Assembly: GCF_000526315.1 (NCBI RefSeq)
Contig: NZ_JAFV01000001.1
Coordinates: forward strand, 744,001-808,000
Direction: 5' to 3'
DNA length: 64,000 bases
Origin: Methylopila sp. 73B
Lineage (GTDB): Bacteria > Pseudomonadota > Alphaproteobacteria > Rhizobiales > Methylopilaceae
The notes below the pieces were generated by a model. That model searched no databases. It saw nothing but the letters and a program-made list of their open reading frames with translations, and was not told the origin of the DNA. The translations under genes were made by a program, and so were the position numbers. The first letter of the stretch is position 1; each line of letters opens with the position of its first letter. Below, piece by piece: positions 16,477 through 22,551 of the stretch.

Positions 16477-16553
16477 TGGCGACCCCGGGTGGATTCGAAC
16501 CACCGACCATCAGCTTAGAAGGCTGGTGCTCTATCCGGCTGAGCTACGGGGCC
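16477..16553 (-). tRNA. tRNA-Arg (anticodon TCT)
   Basis: Read on the minus strand, the 77 bases fold as a cloverleaf: acceptor GGCCCCG pairs with CGGGGTC (one G-T wobble), D arm GCTC/GAGC, anticodon stem CCAGC/GCTGA (one C-A mismatch at its outer pair), loop CTTCTAA with anticodon TCT, and T arm GGTGG-TTCGAAT-CCACC. The discriminator is G and the CCA end is encoded. It reads the rare AGA/AGG codons in this GC-rich genome. Confidence 0.97.
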
Positions 16554-17046: not shown

Positions 17047-18867
17047 TCAGCCTGCGCTGCAGGCCGCGCCGCCAAGGACGCAGAAGGTGGCGCAGTGCGG
17101 ATGGTTGAGCGCGACGGGCCGGCTGGCCTCCGCGAGCGTCGCACCGAGCTCGAAGCGCTCGTCATAGGCGAGCAGGGTGCAGGCGAGCACGGCGGGGCGG
17201 TCCGCGCCCTTGCGCTTCACCACCATGCGGGAGGAGGCGCACATCAGGCTCCGCGGATCGACGCCCAGCAGGCCCCAGCAGGCGGTGGTGATCTCGGGGA
17301 CGTCGGCGCCGGCGTCCATCTCCGGGAACAGCGTCAGGGCGACAGGGTCGGCGGCGTCGACGGGGACGTCGTGCGCGGCGAACAGCCGGGCGAAGCCCGC
17401 CCGCACCACGCCTTCCGCCTCGCCGGAGAACAGGCGTCCCGCGATGGAGAGCGCAAAGCCCTGATCGGCCAGCCATTTCAAGCCGTCGAGCGTCGGCTGG
17501 AAGCTGCGCGGCCCGCGCTCCAGCTCGTGCAGCGCCGGGTCGTAGTGGTCGAGCGAGACCCGCAGCGTCAGCCGCCCGCCGTAGCGCTCCTTAAGCGCCA
17601 GCAGGGGCGCTTTCAGCCGCTGCATCGGCCGCATGGCGTTTGTCAGCACCAGCGCCCGATGACCGCGGGCGAGGGCGTCCTCGACCATCGCCAGAAGGTC
17701 GGGATTCATGAACGGCTCGCCGCCGGTGAAGCCGATCTCTGCAAGTTCGGGATGGTCGTGCGCGGCCTCGTCGAGGAAGGCGCCGGCCTCAGCGGCCGTG
17801 ATGTAGACAAGCCGGTCGTTGCGGGGCGTCGACTCGATGTAGCAGTTCGCGCAGGCGAGATTGCAGAGCGTGCCCGTGTTGATCCAGAGCGTGCGCAAGC
17901 TGGAAAGCCCGACCGTGGCGCGAGGCTCGCCGCGCGCGGTCAAAGCGCCGTTCTGAAACTTTTCGGGCGCGAGCCGAGCAACCGCGGCCGAGACCGGCCA
18001 GGCCGGCGCGTCGTCCCGGTCCCGGCGCCAGACGACGCCGCCGGGTTCGACCGGGCGGCCCGTGCGCTTGACCTCGGCCGGAGGCAGGGCGTCGCAGCTT
18101 GGCCAAAGGCCGGTTCCGAGCGCCGCGGCGTAGCCCTCGGGCAACCCGGCCGCGCGCATCTTCGTCGCCGCCGCCGCCCAGCCGTACTCCAGCCGCCGGT
18201 GCTCGACGACGACGCTCCGCGGTTCGGGGCCCGGGGTGAGCAGGCTGCACCAAACCTCCCGTCGGCCGTCGTTCGCCGGCATCCCGACAGCGCCGGGATT
18301 GTGCCAGAGGCGGCCGTCGATCACCTGGCTGAAGGGGAGGCCGGAGTGGCCCGCAACGATCCCGTCGACGCCGGACGCCGCGAGATCGAGGGCTTTCACC
18401 CGCGCCGGCGTCGAGGGGAAGACGAAGCGGGCGATGTGATCGAGCGACCCGTGGATCACCGCGAGGGTCAGGCCGCCGACCGCGACGTCCAGCCGGCGGG
18501 GCAGGGCGGCCATCCACGCACGGTCGTCCGGCCCGAGTTCGCGCGACGCATGCGCGAACCAGGCCGCGGAAAGCCGGTCGCAGGCGCTTCCCGGCGCAAA
18601 GCCGCAACCGCAGTCCTCCTCGCCGGCCGCGAGCTGCTCCTCGCAATTGCCCATCACGACATGGACGCCCGCACGACGCACGAGCTCCACGCAGGCCTTC
18701 GCGTCCGCGCCATAGGCCACGACGTCGCCGGTGCAGACCACGCGATGCGGCGGAACTCCCAGGCGCGTCGCTTCGGACAGCGCGGCGGCGGTCGCCTCGA
18801 GGTTCGAATAAGGGCCGCCGAACAGAAACAGCGGGCCGTCCGGCGTCGTATCGGGGGGGATCGTCAT
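17047..18867 (-). CDS. Metallophosphoesterase-like / radical SAM fusion protein
   Basis: This protein has two domains in about 606 residues. The N-terminal 240 or so resemble a YfcE-type metallophosphoesterase: GDVVAYG, GNCEEQ, IHGS and GHSGLPF match motifs II-V, but motif I (normally SDxHGN) reads FGGPYSN, losing the Asp and His metal ligands. The C-terminal part is radical SAM, with the cluster motif CNLACANC (Cys335, 339, 342), then FTGGEPFMNPD. A Cys-rich end (TACW, LMCA, LACT, HCATFC, AAC) may hold an auxiliary Fe-S cluster. It is divergent from a phosphonate-type transporter and two TIGR04282/04283 transferases. I infer carbon-centred chemistry on the imported substrate. The start is uncertain: ATG at 18888 is also possible and neither has a good ribosome site. 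Confidence 0.9.
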   Translation of the reverse strand: MTIPPDTTPDGPLFLFGGPYSNLEATAAALSEATRLGVPPHRVVCTGDVVAYGADAKACVELVRRAGVHVVMGNCEEQLAAGEEDCGCGFAPGSACDRLSAAWFAHASRELGPDDRAWMAALPRRLDVAVGGLTLAVIHGSLDHIARFVFPSTPARVKALDLAASGVDGIVAGHSGLPFSQVIDGRLWHNPGAVGMPANDGRREVWCSLLTPGPEPRSVVVEHRRLEYGWAAAATKMRAAGLPEGYAAALGTGLWPSCDALPPAEVKRTGRPVEPGGVVWRRDRDDAPAWPVSAAVARLAPEKFQNGALTARGEPRATVGLSSLRTLWINTGTLCNLACANCYIESTPRNDRLVYITAAEAGAFLDEAAHDHPELAEIGFTGGEPFMNPDLLAMVEDALARGHRALVLTNAMRPMQRLKAPLLALKERYGGRLTLRVSLDHYDPALHELERGPRSFQPTLDGLKWLADQGFALSIAGRLFSGEAEGVVRAGFARLFAAHDVPVDAADPVALTLFPEMDAGADVPEITTACWGLLGVDPRSLMCASSRMVVKRKGADRPAVLACTLLAYDERFELGATLAEASRPVALNHPHCATFCVLGGAACSAG

Positions 18868-18943
18868 GTCCTGAGATACGAAAGCCATGGGAGGGATGCT
18901 ACACGTGTCCGATCGATTTGGCCGCAACCCATGGGAGCCGCTT

Positions 18944-19810
18944 GTGCGCACCGCAGTTCGACGCCTCGCCGCCGCGGCGCTCCTCCTCGCCGCCAGCGCA
19001 GCTCCGGCCGGGGCGGAGACCCTGCGCTTCGCGGTCGGCCCGTTCCAACCGACGCCGGGAGACACGCGAAAGGCTTACGAGCCGTTCTTCGCCTATCTCG
19101 CGAAGACGCTTGGGGTGGATTACGAACTGGTCGTCACCACGGATTGGGCCGGCATCGCGACGGCGCTCGCGACCGGACAGGCCGACGTCGCCTGGATGGG
19201 TCCCTGGGGCTACGTGCTCGCGAACCGCGAAGGGGACGCGCAGGCGATCGCGACGGTGAAGTACGACGGCAAGCCGACCTATCACGCCATCGTCGTCGGC
19301 CGTCCGGACCTCCAGATCGCGAACTGGCCGGATGACGCGAAAGGCCTGAGCATCTCCTTCGCCGACGTCGGCTCCACCTCCGGCTGGCTGATCCCGACCT
19401 GGTGGTTCAAGACCAAGGGGATCGACCCCAAGACCTTCTTCAGATACCGCGACGGCGCCTCGCATCCGGCGAACGAGATCGCGGTCGCGAACGGACAGGT
19501 CGACCTCGCCACCGACTACGACCGCAACCTGCGCGCCATGCAGGAGCGCGGGCTGCTGAAGCCGGACCAGGTGAAGGTGGTCTGGACCTCGGAGCCGCTG
19601 CCGAATGACCCTCTCGTGGTTCGCAAGGGGTTTGACCCTGCGCGCGTCGAGACGCTGCGCCAGGCGGTGGTCGCGATCGACGAGGAAGAGGCGAAGGCGG
19701 TGATGCCGCCCCATTACACCGGCTGGGTTCCCGCCGCACACGCCGACTACAAGCTGATCGAAGACGCCGGCGTCGCCATCGGCAAGCTGAAGCCGCGGGC
19801 GCCTGAGTGA
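18944..19810 (+). CDS. Phosphonate/phosphite-type ABC transporter substrate-binding protein (PhnD-like)
   Basis: This is a 288-residue periplasmic binding protein. It has a signal peptide (VRTAVRRLAAAALLLAASA, cut near PAGAE), then LRFAVGPFQPTPGDTRKAY and LATGQADVAWMGPWGYVLA, which match the PhnD/PtxB group of oxyanion- and phosphonate-binding proteins. The GTG at 18944 is preferred over an ATG 57 bases earlier because GGGAG lies six bases before it and the protein then begins with a clean signal peptide; the longer form would also overlap the 5' end of the divergent gene. It is the first gene of a five-gene run. The ligand could be phosphonate, phosphite, phosphate, arsenate or selenate. Confidence 0.9.
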   Translation: MRTAVRRLAAAALLLAASAAPAGAETLRFAVGPFQPTPGDTRKAYEPFFAYLAKTLGVDYELVVTTDWAGIATALATGQADVAWMGPWGYVLANREGDAQAIATVKYDGKPTYHAIVVGRPDLQIANWPDDAKGLSISFADVGSTSGWLIPTWWFKTKGIDPKTFFRYRDGASHPANEIAVANGQVDLATDYDRNLRAMQERGLLKPDQVKVVWTSEPLPNDPLVVRKGFDPARVETLRQAVVAIDEEEAKAVMPPHYTGWVPAAHADYKLIEDAGVAIGKLKPRAPE

Positions 19811-19813
19811 GCC

Positions 19814-20584
19814 GTGCCGTCTGACCTGAGGCGGTGGCTCGGCCGGCTGCTGGCGGCGACGCTCGCGATCGCGGCGCTCGCGCTGATGTGGCGGGTCGCC
19901 GAGGTCGATCTCGCCCGTCTGTGGCAGGGGCTGCCTCGGGTCGCCGCCTGGGGCGCCCGGGCCTGGCCGCCCAACTTCGAGGATGGCGCCACGCTTCTGC
20001 GCCGCGCCGGCGAGACGCTCGCCATGGCGACGCTGGGGACGGTTCTCGGCGCGCTCGTGGCGGCGCCGCTCTGCCTGCTCGCCGCCCGCACTACGGCGCC
20101 GGGCGCGCTGGTCTACGCGCCGGCCCGGGCGCTGCTGAACGTGCTGCGCGGGGTCGACAGTTTCGTCTTCGCCCTGCTGTTCGTGGCGGCTGTCGGTCTC
20201 GGGCCGTTTGCGGGTCTGCTGGGGATCGCGCTGCATTCCGCCGGCTCGATCGCGAAGCTCTGGTCGGAGACGATCGAGCAGGCGGCCCCCGGCCCGATCG
20301 AGGCCGCGACGCTCACCGGCGCCTCGCGTCTCAAGATCGCGCTGCACGCGCTCCTGCCGGACGTCGCGCCGGGGCTCGCCTCCACCGCGCTCTACATTCT
20401 CGAGTTCAACGTTCGCGCCTCGACCGTGCTCGGCGTCGTCGGCGCCGGCGGCTTGGGGCAGGAGTTGAAGAACGCCGTGGACCTGCTCGACTCGCCGCGC
20501 GTATTTGCGATCATCTTGGTCATCCTTGTCATGGTGACCGCGATCGACGCCTTCAGCGCCGTCGCGCGCCGGAGGCTGGCGTGA
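19814..20584 (+). CDS. Phosphonate-type ABC transporter permease (PhnE-like)
   Basis: This 256-residue inner-membrane permease has a leading membrane helix (LAATLAIAALALMW) and several more. It carries the permease loop EAATLTGASRLKIALHALLP, where the EAA-G motif contacts the ATPase. It starts at a GTG three bases after the binding-protein stop and overlaps the ATPase start by four bases. PhnE partners PhnD and PhnC in oxyanion or organophosphonate import. The C-terminal ILVILVMVTAIDAFSAVAR is the usual last helix. Confidence 0.9.
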   Translation: MPSDLRRWLGRLLAATLAIAALALMWRVAEVDLARLWQGLPRVAAWGARAWPPNFEDGATLLRRAGETLAMATLGTVLGALVAAPLCLLAARTTAPGALVYAPARALLNVLRGVDSFVFALLFVAAVGLGPFAGLLGIALHSAGSIAKLWSETIEQAAPGPIEAATLTGASRLKIALHALLPDVAPGLASTALYILEFNVRASTVLGVVGAGGLGQELKNAVDLLDSPRVFAIILVILVMVTAIDAFSAVARRRLA

Positions 20585-21267
20585 ACGGCGGCGTCGTCGT
20601 GCGGGGGCTCTCGAAGGCCTACGACGGCCGCGCGGCGCTTCGGAACGCCTCGCTCACCGCGCCGCGCGGGAGCTTCGTCGCGCTTCTCGGGCCGAGCGGC
20701 GCCGGCAAGACCACGCTGCTGCGTTGCCTCGCGCGGTTGGCGGCGCCCGACGCCGGCGAAGCCTTCGTCGACGGCCGGCCGATGCACGCGCTGTCGGGCC
20801 GGGCTTTGAAGGAGGCGCGGGCGCGCATCGGCTTCGTGTTCCAGGACTTCAACCTCGTTCGGCGCCGCTCGGCCTTGGACAACGCGCTCGGGGGAGTCCT
20901 TGCAAGCACGCCGCTGTGGCGCGTGGCGCTCGGCCGTCCACGGCCGGATGACGCCCGCGCGGCGATGGCGGCGCTGGATCGGGTCGGGCTCGGAGACCGG
21001 GCCGAGGCCCGCGCGGACGAACTGTCTGGCGGACAGCGCCAGCGGGTAGCGATCGCGCGCGCGCTGGTGCAGGACACCGCCGTGCTGCTCGCGGACGAGC
21101 CGGTGGCGAGCCTCGATCCCGACTCCGCCGCGGGAGTGCTCTCGCTGCTCAAGGACCTCACGCGGGAACGCGGGCTCACGGTGCTCTGCAGCCTGCATCA
21201 GCATCACCTCGCGCGCGCTTACGCCGACGAGATCGTCGTCCTCGCGCCGCCCGAGGACGAGCCGTGA
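20581..21267 (+). CDS. Phosphonate-type ABC transporter ATP-binding protein (PhnC-like)
   Basis: This 228-residue ATPase has Walker A GPSGAGKTT (near residue 40), the Q-loop FVFQDFNLVRR typical of PhnC, the signature ELSGGQRQRVAIARAL (near residue 147) and Walker B VLLADEPVASLDP. The GTG start overlaps the permease stop. It is a little shorter than most PhnC proteins because its C-terminal tail is brief. It powers import by the PhnD/PhnE-like pair. The next gene also begins inside its last codons. Confidence 0.92.
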   Translation: MNGGVVVRGLSKAYDGRAALRNASLTAPRGSFVALLGPSGAGKTTLLRCLARLAAPDAGEAFVDGRPMHALSGRALKEARARIGFVFQDFNLVRRRSALDNALGGVLASTPLWRVALGRPRPDDARAAMAALDRVGLGDRAEARADELSGGQRQRVAIARALVQDTAVLLADEPVASLDPDSAAGVLSLLKDLTRERGLTVLCSLHQHHLARAYADEIVVLAPPEDEP

Positions 21268-21938
21268 GGCTTTCGGTGATCATCCCGACCTTGAACGCCG
21301 AAGGCGCACTATCGGCCACGCTTGCGAGCCTGGAGGAGGGTCGACATGCGATCGCCGAAGTCGTCGTCAGCGACGGCGAATCTTCGGACGGCACGCGCGA
21401 CGCGGCGGAGGCTTTCGGCTGCCGGGTGATCGTCGGGTCGCGGGGCCGCGGGGCGCAGCTTCGGCGGGGCGCCGGGCTCGCGACCGGCGACTGGCTGCTG
21501 TTCCTCCACGCCGACACGCGGCTGGACGCCGGCTGGAGCGCGGTCGCCGAGCGCTTCGCGATCCAAGCCGGCGACAATGGGGCCGCGGCGTTCGCCTTCG
21601 CGCTGGACGATGACGTTCCGGCCGCCCGGAGGTTGGAGCGCATGGTGCGTTGGCGCGGTCGGCTGCTCGCCTTGCCCTACGGCGATCAGGGGCTGCTGAT
21701 CTCCCGCGCGCTCTACGATCGCCTCGGCGGCTATGCCGATGCGCCCCTGATGGAGGACGTCGACCTCGTTCGCCGCATCGGCCGGCGGCGGCTGACGATC
21801 CTGCCCGTCCGCGCGGTGACGAGCGCCGCCCGCTACCGCCGCGCCGGCTATCTCCGCCGCATGGCGCGGAACGCCCTCTGTCTTGCCCTGTATCTCGGCG
21901 GGGTGTCGCCCGCGCGGATCGCGAGGCTCTATGGCTGA
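21264..21938 (+). CDS. TIGR04283-type GT2 glycosyltransferase (arsenosugar-associated family)
   Basis: This 224-residue protein is a compact GT-A enzyme. It opens with LSVIIPTLNAEGALSATLAS, has the acidic VVSDGESSDGT and the metal-binding FLHADTRLD, and ends with a product-side stretch PLMEDVDLVRRIGRR. This pattern matches TIGR04283, first described as a transferase associated with radical SAM/selenodomain proteins and later annotated with arsenosugar biosynthesis. The GTG start overlaps the phnC-like stop by four bases, and the next gene overlaps its end by eight. I infer that it acts with the neighbouring TIGR04282 enzyme on the substrate moved by the transporter. Confidence 0.87.
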   Translation: MRLSVIIPTLNAEGALSATLASLEEGRHAIAEVVVSDGESSDGTRDAAEAFGCRVIVGSRGRGAQLRRGAGLATGDWLLFLHADTRLDAGWSAVAERFAIQAGDNGAAAFAFALDDDVPAARRLERMVRWRGRLLALPYGDQGLLISRALYDRLGGYADAPLMEDVDLVRRIGRRRLTILPVRAVTSAARYRRAGYLRRMARNALCLALYLGGVSPARIARLYG

Positions 21939-22551
21939 GCCTCGCGCGCGTCCCACGCTGTTCGTGATGGTGAAGGCGCCGGTCGCGGGCCGCGTGAAGA
22001 CGCGGCTCGCGCGCACCATCGGCGCGCCGGAGGCCTTGCGCTTCTACCGCACGGCGACGGCGGCGCTGCTCCGGCGGGTCGGCCGGGACCCGCGCTGGCG
22101 CACGATTCTGGCGGTCGCGCCCGACGTAGCGGCGGCGAAGGGGTTCTGGCCGGCGGACATCGCGCGCATCGGGCAGGGGTCGGGCGACCTCGGCGCCCGG
22201 ATGCAGCGGCTGATCGACCTCAACCGCAGCGCCCCGACCATCATCGTCGGGTCGGACATCCCCGGCGTGCGGCGCCGCCATGTCGCGCAGGCGTTCCGCG
22301 CACTGGGGACGCACGAGATCGTGTTCGGTCCCGCGGATGACGGCGGCTACTGGTTGATCGGCGCGCGCGGGCGTCCGCGCGTCCCGAACCTGTTTCGAAA
22401 CGTCCGGTGGTCGACGGAGCACGCGCTTGCCGACACGCGCGCGAACGCAGGCGATTCGGTGGGATTTCTGGAACGGCTCTCGGATGTCGACGACGAGGCC
22501 GGCTGGCGGGCTTGGCGTCGGGGGGGCGTAACCCAAGCGTCGTTCGGATAG
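21931..22551 (+). CDS. TIGR04282/DUF2064-type nucleotidyl- or glycosyltransferase
   Basis: This 206-residue protein is of the CofC/MobA-like GT-A fold. It has FVMVKAPVAGRVKTRLA at the N-terminus (nucleotide loop), IIVGSDIPGV in the centre, and FGPADDGGYWLIGARG as the acidic active-site block. These are the family marks of TIGR04282 (DUF2064), which travels with TIGR04283 and was named for its link to a radical SAM/selenodomain protein and then to arsenosugars. It is the last gene of the overlapping five-gene run. The two transferases may make and use an unusual nucleotide sugar; the substrate is not shown by the sequence. Confidence 0.87.
   Translation: MAEPRARPTLFVMVKAPVAGRVKTRLARTIGAPEALRFYRTATAALLRRVGRDPRWRTILAVAPDVAAAKGFWPADIARIGQGSGDLGARMQRLIDLNRSAPTIIVGSDIPGVRRRHVAQAFRALGTHEIVFGPADDGGYWLIGARGRPRVPNLFRNVRWSTEHALADTRANAGDSVGFLERLSDVDDEAGWRAWRRGGVTQASFG

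Follow-up and report, generated by a model that had tools for sequence, protein, structure and literature searches.

A recurring gene cassette in Methylopila sp. 73B that joins an HtxB-like transporter to a metallophosphoesterase-radical SAM fusion, and its possible arsenosugar-type role

We analysed a stretch of 64,000 nucleotides from Methylopila sp. 73B (contig NZ_JAFV01000001.1, positions 744,001 to 808,000), referred to below as the window, which carries a compact cassette of six genes. Five of these lie on the plus strand and encode a PhnDEC-type transporter and two proteins of the families TIGR04283 and TIGR04282. The sixth diverges from them and encodes a fusion of a degenerate metallophosphoesterase (MPE) with a radical S-adenosylmethionine (SAM) protein (rSAM). 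The features, in window positions, are:

17047-22551, both strands: the six-gene cassette
17047-18888, minus strand: MPE-rSAM fusion (P0001), 613 amino acids (aa) from the ATG at 18888, with the degenerate MPE at aa 1-300 and the rSAM at aa 301-613
17989-18888, minus strand: MPE half of P0001, from the alignment to 3rqz, the family alignment and the fold match
17050-17988, minus strand: rSAM half of P0001, from the family alignment, the hhalign comparison to ArsS and the fold
18905-19810, plus strand: phnD, HtxB-like periplasmic binding protein (P0002), starting at the GTG at 18905 or at 18944
19814-20584, plus strand: PhnE-type permease (P0003)
20581-21267, plus strand: PhnC-type ATPase (P0004), overlapping phnE by 4 bases
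21264-21938, plus strand: TIGR04283 family glycosyltransferase (P0005), overlapping phnC by 4 bases
21931-22551, plus strand: TIGR04282 (DUF2064) family protein, weakly CofC-like (P0006), overlapping the TIGR04283 gene by 8 bases

The six genes and their recurrence as a unit

Each of the six genes was found where a first-pass annotation of this DNA had placed it. The gap of 76 bases given there between the divergent genes applies to the inner start codons (18867/18944), while the outer ones leave 16 bases. P0001 matches PF12850 (metallophosphoesterase) at aa 34-210 and PF04055 (Radical_SAM) at aa 336-479. P0005 and P0006 score above the cut-offs of TIGR04283 (219.6 bits, cut-off 182) and TIGR04282 (143.1 bits, cut-off 134), respectively, as does the permease for TIGR01097 (250.4 bits, cut-off 216.7). 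The ATPase stays below the cut-off of TIGR02315 (249.3 bits, cut-off 266.1). The binding protein exceeds the cut-off of TIGR01098 (172.3 bits, cut-off 112) and falls below that of the PhnD family TIGR03431 (182.3 bits, cut-off 261.1).

The fusion and its neighbours were searched for in 297 genomes of the window's order (Rhizobiales) and in 385 of its class (Alphaproteobacteria). Up to four candidates per genome were scored in the order and up to three in the class, so the apparent absence of one half is not proof that it is missing. The whole fusion occurred in 4/297 order genomes, three from the window's genus (the window genome among them) and one from Lutibaculum (G129), and in 2/385 class genomes, namely the window genome and G390. 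All four fusion genomes of the order sample also have an HtxB-like binding protein, which at 370 bits or more is present in 7/297 order genomes and at E = 1e-60 in 13/297. Within the window's genus, three of ten genomes hold both the fusion and the HtxB-like protein and the other seven hold neither. The nearest named relatives found were Methylopila sp. Yamaguchi and M. capsulata, whose binding proteins are 94% and 92% identical to that of the window.

A search with the transporter uncovered two further fusions, in Ancylobacter dichloromethanicus and Bradyrhizobium sp. BTAi1, for a total of seven distinct fusion genomes. PhnDEC adjoins the fusion in six of them; a TIGR04282-like gene is present in those six and a TIGR04283-like gene in five. 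As the Ancylobacter and BTAi1 fusions came from the transporter as bait, the unbiased co-occurrence is 4/5. In G390, a TIGR0428x-like pair stands beside a second, unfused rSAM (locus L112). The cassette is a real, recurring and patchily distributed unit, and because it recurs in other genomes it is more than a chance association. This bears out the earlier proposal of one cassette, which travels with TIGR0428x genes. The first-pass annotation had named rare co-occurrence of the fusion with the five-gene run as the observation that would undo its proposal; PhnDEC beside four of the five unbiased fusions speaks to the opposite.

In the Lutibaculum locus (L148, 10863-11625), the permease gene is in two overlapping pieces in different frames, either because the gene is broken or through an error in the contig. 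A tRNA-Arg(TCT) gene at window positions 16477-16553, about 490 bases from the cassette, may mark an island site; in comparison with congeners the flanks were rearranged and showed no clean empty site.

The two halves of the fusion protein

The closest folds to the MPE half are metallophosphoesterases of the SapH and 3rqz type (TM-scores of 0.75-0.81 by target length). In place of the usual DxHxN motif the half carries FGGPYSN; it retains GD, GN, HG and GH and has lost the last histidine of GHxH, so that against 3rqz, DVH has become GPY and GHTH has become GHSG. An active binuclear metallophosphoesterase is expected to have DxH and the second histidine of GHxH, which we take to be the site-1 metal ligands, and here GxY and GHxG are found. 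The residues that presumably form site 2 are retained, D55, N81 and H181 in at least 90% and H146 in 21/21 of the alignment rows. Judged from these alignments, site 1 is predicted to be gone, with three of its four usual ligands lost, and site 2 to be kept. This makes hydrolysis by the usual mechanism doubtful. The half differs from the SapH and 3rqz-type enzymes further in a near-invariant DCGCG motif, and C52, C93, C95 and C103 are present in at least 90% of the 21 rows. We infer that it may be a thiol-rich holder of trivalent arsenic.

The rSAM half carries the motif CX3CX2C (LCNLACANCY) and belongs to the radical SAM superfamily by its PF04055 match. It has six conserved C-terminal cysteines, five in 24/24 alignment rows and the last in at least 90%. 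When the family was compared by hhalign with ArsS, the rSAM of ArsM-ArsS arsenosugar biosynthesis (TIGR04167, NF038099, TIGR04282, TIGR04283), the two aligned over 263 columns (E = 1.2e-12, 22% identity), that is, over most of the length and with matching C-terminal cysteines, although the core domain alone would account for part of this. P0001 nevertheless reached only 52.5 bits against ArsS (54.3 in the genome search; cut-off 300) and lacks PF12345 (DUF3641), a domain present in the ArsS proteins of loci L137, L150 and L205. It also differs from ArsS in being fused to an MPE and linked to an importer. P0001 reached the cut-off of no NCBIfam family among the best 25 of 43 matches; the highest score, 83.7 bits, was to the Rv1681 family (NF049973; cut-off 380), with only the core domain aligned.

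A hidden Markov model (HMM) built from the alphaproteobacterial members scored five relatives from beyond the class at 189-210 bits and ArsS at 43-48 bits, which places these relatives with the new rSAM family. The best fold matches of the rSAM model (mean pLDDT 84) are BlsE, SuiB and SkfB, with modest TM-scores of 0.5-0.6 by query. The rSAM half thus most likely represents an undescribed family that works like ArsS and yet fails the tests for ArsS membership.

In addition to the match of aa 333-506 of P0001 to the Rv1681 rSAM, P0002 weakly matches the Rv1680 protein, resembling a substrate-binding protein (NF049985; 24.3 bits). This suggests a remote parallel pairing in mycobacteria, where adjacency is taken from the names only. 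No paper joining Rv1680 with Rv1681 was found in the literature searched.

The rSAM half mostly occurs as a separate protein. An unfused form was found in another 87 order genomes and in 112 class genomes, so that the family, fusions included, is found in 91/297 and 114/385 genomes. An unfused MPE half is rarer (31 order and 22 class genomes) and is almost always accompanied by the rSAM, in 28/31 genomes of the order, where 87/293 carry the rSAM overall, and in 19/22 of the class. The association is strong (Fisher's test, 1e-13 in the order and 1.5e-8 in the class, uncorrected for relatedness). Four weaker MPE matches (G004, G055, G092 and G014) were excluded, and with them the order count would be 29/35. 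One exception in the order, G224, does contain a partial rSAM, whose score of 136 bits fell below the threshold used; among the three in the class, G310 and G442 carry true ArsS and G349 does not. Eight of the loci fetched have the two halves side by side in separate frames.

We then asked for the history of the fusion by an approximately unbiased (AU) test, run after the first tree had been seen on a group defined by fusion and not by the tree. For the rSAM half, a single ancestral fusion was rejected (AU p = 4.3e-5, at least four changes), and the fused rSAMs fall into more than one clade. For the MPE half it was not rejected (AU p = 0.28, at least three changes), and these halves could be one clade. 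The first-pass annotation had regarded the rSAM as a different, phosphoesterase-fused type. It is indeed not ArsS, but fusion does not define the type, as the rSAM half is widespread, mostly separate and, where fused, not of one clade.

Two loci are of separate interest. In Ancylobacter dichloromethanicus (L141, 5192-6103), a second, unfused rSAM lies between a methylthioadenosine (MTA) phosphorylase gene (MTAP) and the fusion gene. Its frame lacks the conserved C-terminal cysteines, which suggests a decayed copy. In G393, a genome of 1.2 Mb, the rSAM (L135, 8266-9165) stands next to a VTT protein, with an apparent methionine synthase farther upstream and an MPE at 34% identity elsewhere, showing that the family persists in a small genome.

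The HtxB-like binding protein and its gene context

The best solved relative of P0002 is HtxB (5me4; E = 3.2e-86). The predicted pocket comprises W81, Y126, S157, T158, S159, H187, Y205, R207 and D235. W81, Y126, T158, S159, R207 and D235 align to HtxB W52, Y97, T129, S130, R178 and D206 and are kept, while S157, H187 and Y205 replace N128, F158 and M176. P0002 thus departs from the HtxB pocket and shows the 'HtxB-like/hybrid' one (Ser, His and Tyr/Phe with a Trp cap), with N128S, F158H and M176Y exactly as printed for the published HtxB-like group in the accessible part of that paper (PMC6629693). The group was predicted there to bind phosphite, with Bradyrhizobium sp. BTAi1, Methylopila sp. 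73B and Lutibaculum baratangense as examples. BTAi1 and Lutibaculum both carry the fusion cassette. That part of the paper gives no measured ligand for the group and does not mention that its genes are linked to those for MPE, rSAM and arsenosugar-type proteins. HtxB itself did not bind methylphosphonate up to 10 mM, according to the portion of PMC5700983 available to us. The first-pass annotation had left the substrate as a phosphonate, arsenic or similar oxyanion compound; the HtxB-type pocket makes a plain phosphonate less likely. Uptake linked to C-P lyase was rejected, as the PhnD score is below the cut-off and HtxB is far closer.

To survey the gene context, named genomes were scanned with the binding-protein alignment and the best 80 of 145 relatives were kept; neighbours were counted within 7 kb and above 40 bits, and PhnC only from 130 bits. 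An MPE was found near 47 of the 80 transporters, rSAM near 23, ArsS near 4, TIGR0428x near 14, VTT near 24, an FAD oxidoreductase near 26 and MTAP near 3. The rSAM never occurred without MPE (23 versus 0, p = 4e-7, uncorrected for relatedness). The remaining 31 transporters had none of the tested arsenic-type neighbours. Ser, His and Trp of the pocket were present in 81/81 sequences and Tyr/Phe in all but one (Ile). As Ser and His are found in all 81 sequences whatever their neighbours, pocket and gene context do not sort together.

The cassette transporter could therefore be considered as plain phosphite or hypophosphite uptake for phosphorus nutrition, beside unrelated or only loosely linked MPE, rSAM and TIGR0428x genes. 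The 31 bare loci, where the pocket residues are unchanged with no MPE, rSAM or ArsS nearby, speak for it, and that this pocket does not sort with gene context is the strongest point for phosphite as substrate. We nevertheless judge this explanation unlikely, given the frequency of MPE and rSAM near the transporters, the strict dependence of the latter on the former, and the joint presence or absence of fusion and HtxB-like protein within the genus. We also aligned 98 of the 118 open reading frames (ORFs) listed beside the bare transporters and viewed the 25 most frequent of their 74 Pfam families. No 2-hydroxyacid dehydrogenase of the PtxD type recurred among these 25 families, PtxD and HtxA not having been searched genome-wide, and PtxD-linked phosphite oxidation was rejected on these grounds.

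A selenium or sulfur oxyanion pathway is brought to mind by the 'selenodomain' naming of the TIGR0428x families, by the match of the binding protein to the selenate-type family TIGR04553 and by the DsrE and TusA proteins that accompany Burkholderiales relatives of the transporter. With 87.7 bits, the match lies far under the cut-off of 250, and that to HtxB is far stronger. Selenate transport was rejected on that score, and we regard the wider pathway as very improbable.

Other partners recur beside these transporters. In Burkholderiales/Betaproteobacteria and Rokubacteria, a different, sulfur-flavoured set accompanies the HtxB-like phnDEC genes: a DsrE protein in 7 loci, a protein of 508 aa that has a methionine-synthase-like domain in 6 and, in some, a TusA-type protein (L184, 9170-14042; L176, L183, L195, L198, L210, L213, L216). 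Genes for an ECF sigma factor and an NrsF anti-sigma factor recur in transporter or rSAM loci (NrsF group, 14 loci: L141, L144, L175, L180-L182, L186, L188, L190, L199, L200, L203, L215 and L219; also L160 and L168) and possibly mark a stress-controlled regulon. DUF547, rhodanese and family 2 glycosyltransferase (GT2) genes recur in an overlapping set.

Arsenic-type neighbours and a proposed pathway

Outside the class, the new rSAM was found in 7/398 genomes of a phylum sample, and five of the seven loci were fetched:

G758: TIGR04282-like, TIGR04283, ArsM, rSAM, VTT protein, FAD oxidoreductase
G958: TIGR04282-like, ArsM, rSAM, MTAP, TIGR04283-like
G687: TIGR04282-like, ArsM, rSAM, MTAP
G814: VTT and FAD genes, with a weak MPE match (47 bits, no Pfam match)
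G991: the rSAM as the one query matched

ArsM thus adjoins the rSAM in three of the five loci (G758, G958 and G687), a TIGR04282-like gene is present in three and a TIGR04283-like gene in two. The ArsM of G758 matches solved arsenite methyltransferases (5evj and 4fr0; E = 1.5e-101 to 5evj), although the ArsM proteins of these loci score below the NCBIfam cut-offs. An ArsS over its cut-off was absent from all five genomes. Within the class, the alphaproteobacterium G538 carries ArsM, TIGR0428x-like genes and an FAD oxidoreductase beside the new rSAM, Ancylobacter has an ArsM 18-19 kb from its transporter, and in two carriers of rSAM and MPE (G388 and G580) short matches to ArsM lie elsewhere in the genome (212 and 209 bits, cut-off 263).

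The HtxB-like transporter, in turn, also occurs in true ArsS operons. In G310 and G442 (L150 and L149), it accompanies ArsS (445.7 bits in G310, cut-off 300), MTAP, TIGR0428x-like genes and an MPE. In Roseateles puraquae and a near-identical metagenome-assembled genome (L205 and L206), the operon runs ArsS (456.6 bits), binding protein, ArsM (400.6 bits, cut-off 400), MPE-like protein, permease and ATPase. The MPE-like protein (L205, 11804-12808) is a remote relative of the MPE half (25% identity, E = 4e-5) that keeps a GCGC motif and has no Pfam or NCBIfam match at E = 1e-5. Five of the fetched loci (L110, L134, L141, L233 and L234) have MTAP adjoining the new rSAM. MTAP, VTT (TVP38) and FAD-oxidoreductase neighbours are common to relatives of the new rSAM and an ArsS operon.

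Taken together, these findings suggest that the cassette takes up a small oxyanion, for which a methylated or inorganic arsenical is the likeliest candidate, and incorporates it into a sugar conjugate by an arsenosugar-type route, a proposal to which we give about an even chance. Arsenic is favoured by the ArsM, ArsS and MTAP neighbours, which converge on it, and the element, the ligand, each reaction and the direction of flow are our reading of this context. P0005 and P0006 count in its favour, as both their families are described as belonging to arsenosugar biosynthesis. So do the alignment of the new rSAM with ArsS, the tie of the MPE to that rSAM, and the joint presence or absence of fusion and HtxB-like protein within the genus. 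PhnDEC would serve for import. The rSAM half, in the manner of ArsS, would transfer the 5'-deoxyadenosyl moiety from SAM to reduced arsenic; an rSAM is described as adenosylating arsenic in oxo-arsenosugar biosynthesis in the accessible part of PMC12159101. Adenine would then be removed by MTA phosphorylase, presumably a housekeeping one in the window genome. This step is suggested by MTAP beside the new rSAM in the five loci and in the ArsS operons of G310 and G442. TIGR04282, which is CofC-like, may activate the ribose-1-phosphate as a nucleotide sugar, and the GT2-like TIGR04283 may transfer the ribosyl unit to an acceptor. The MPE half might hold the arsenical, or else a nucleotide intermediate, or offer it to the active site of the rSAM, and this would account for the two being fused.

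Several observations weigh against this proposal, in addition to the low ArsS score, the missing PF12345, the published phosphite prediction and the bare loci given above. The first-pass annotation had seen no ArsM or ArsS in view, and this extends to the genome, which has neither over an NCBIfam cut-off and in which an ArsM probe matched nothing at E = 1e-12. The probe had no match in 16/20 genomes, including the window genome, the two cassette-bearing congeners, G310 and G442. With no ArsM recognised, the usual source of DMAs(III), trivalent dimethylarsenic, is missing. This suggests that an imported methylarsenical may replace the home-made substrate, though the latter might also come from a distant methyltransferase or be supplied from outside. 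The NCBIfam ArsM cut-off was reached by Roseateles only, yet G538 shows that a real ArsM can fall below it. Among the TIGR0428x relatives in the ArsM loci, two of TIGR04282 stay under the cut-off of 134 (101.5 and 116.3 bits), and of the TIGR04283 relatives one is above 182 (196.8 bits) and the other below (164.5 bits). The four loci with the transporter in a true ArsS operon stem from two lineages only. Of the first 60 rSAM loci that were fetched, just 15 have TIGR0428x genes close by; the function of the rSAM may therefore be broader than this pathway or distinct from it. P0002 is devoid of cysteine, in contrast to thiol-based arsenite sensors. Finally, two of the 98 ORFs beside bare HtxB-like transporters match phosphoenolpyruvate (PEP) mutase, which leans to phosphorus.

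Phosphorus might indeed take the place of arsenic in the same scheme. Imported phosphite or hypophosphite would be converted by the rSAM to 5'-deoxy-5'-phosphono- or phosphinoadenosine through a new C-P bond, and MTAP, TIGR04282 and TIGR04283 would lead on to a phosphonosugar. Besides the PEP mutase matches, HtxB as the closest solved relative, the kept P-H cap (W81) and two-oxygen site, and the S157/H187/Y205 set of proteins predicted to bind phosphite would fit this. The ArsM and ArsS neighbours point to arsenic, and we know of no radical SAM adenosylation of phosphorus; we see only a slim chance for it. If true, ArsS-like chemistry would also serve phosphorus.

Alternatively, arsenic in inorganic, methylated or thiolated form could be imported for detoxification, or the product could be an organoarsenical that serves as a signal or antibiotic instead of an arsenosugar. 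The arsenic neighbours would agree with this as well, and the PhnD-superfamily PDB matches of P0002 include arsenic-system proteins labelled Aio and ArrX. An importer would be an odd device for detoxification, and the set of TIGR04282, TIGR04283 and MTAP fits ribosyl transfer, so we hold both variants to be rather improbable. Arsenite sensing of the Aio/ArrX type was rejected, as these PDB matches are weak and P0002 is free of cysteine.

Nothing turned up in support of the breakdown route that the first-pass annotation had also considered, no search having been aimed at catabolic genes. In the literature, we found nothing that joins metallophosphoesterase, radical SAM and arsenosugar, or arsenosugar with TVP38 or with methylthioadenosine, and a review that touches on arsenosugars, phosphonate and ABC transporters describes no such transporter in its accessible part.

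The rSAM family described here is widespread and unnamed and is likely a second enzyme of the ArsS type, often accompanied by a degenerate phosphoesterase. As MTAP, TIGR04282 and TIGR04283 adjoin both rSAM types, the steps after ArsS (adenine removal, activation and ribosyl transfer) become testable. The uptake of small organoarsenicals is called largely unknown in the available part of a review (PMC12608789). The transporter is a candidate importer for small arsenicals, and the published 'HtxB-like' transporters may be re-read by their arsenic-type gene context.

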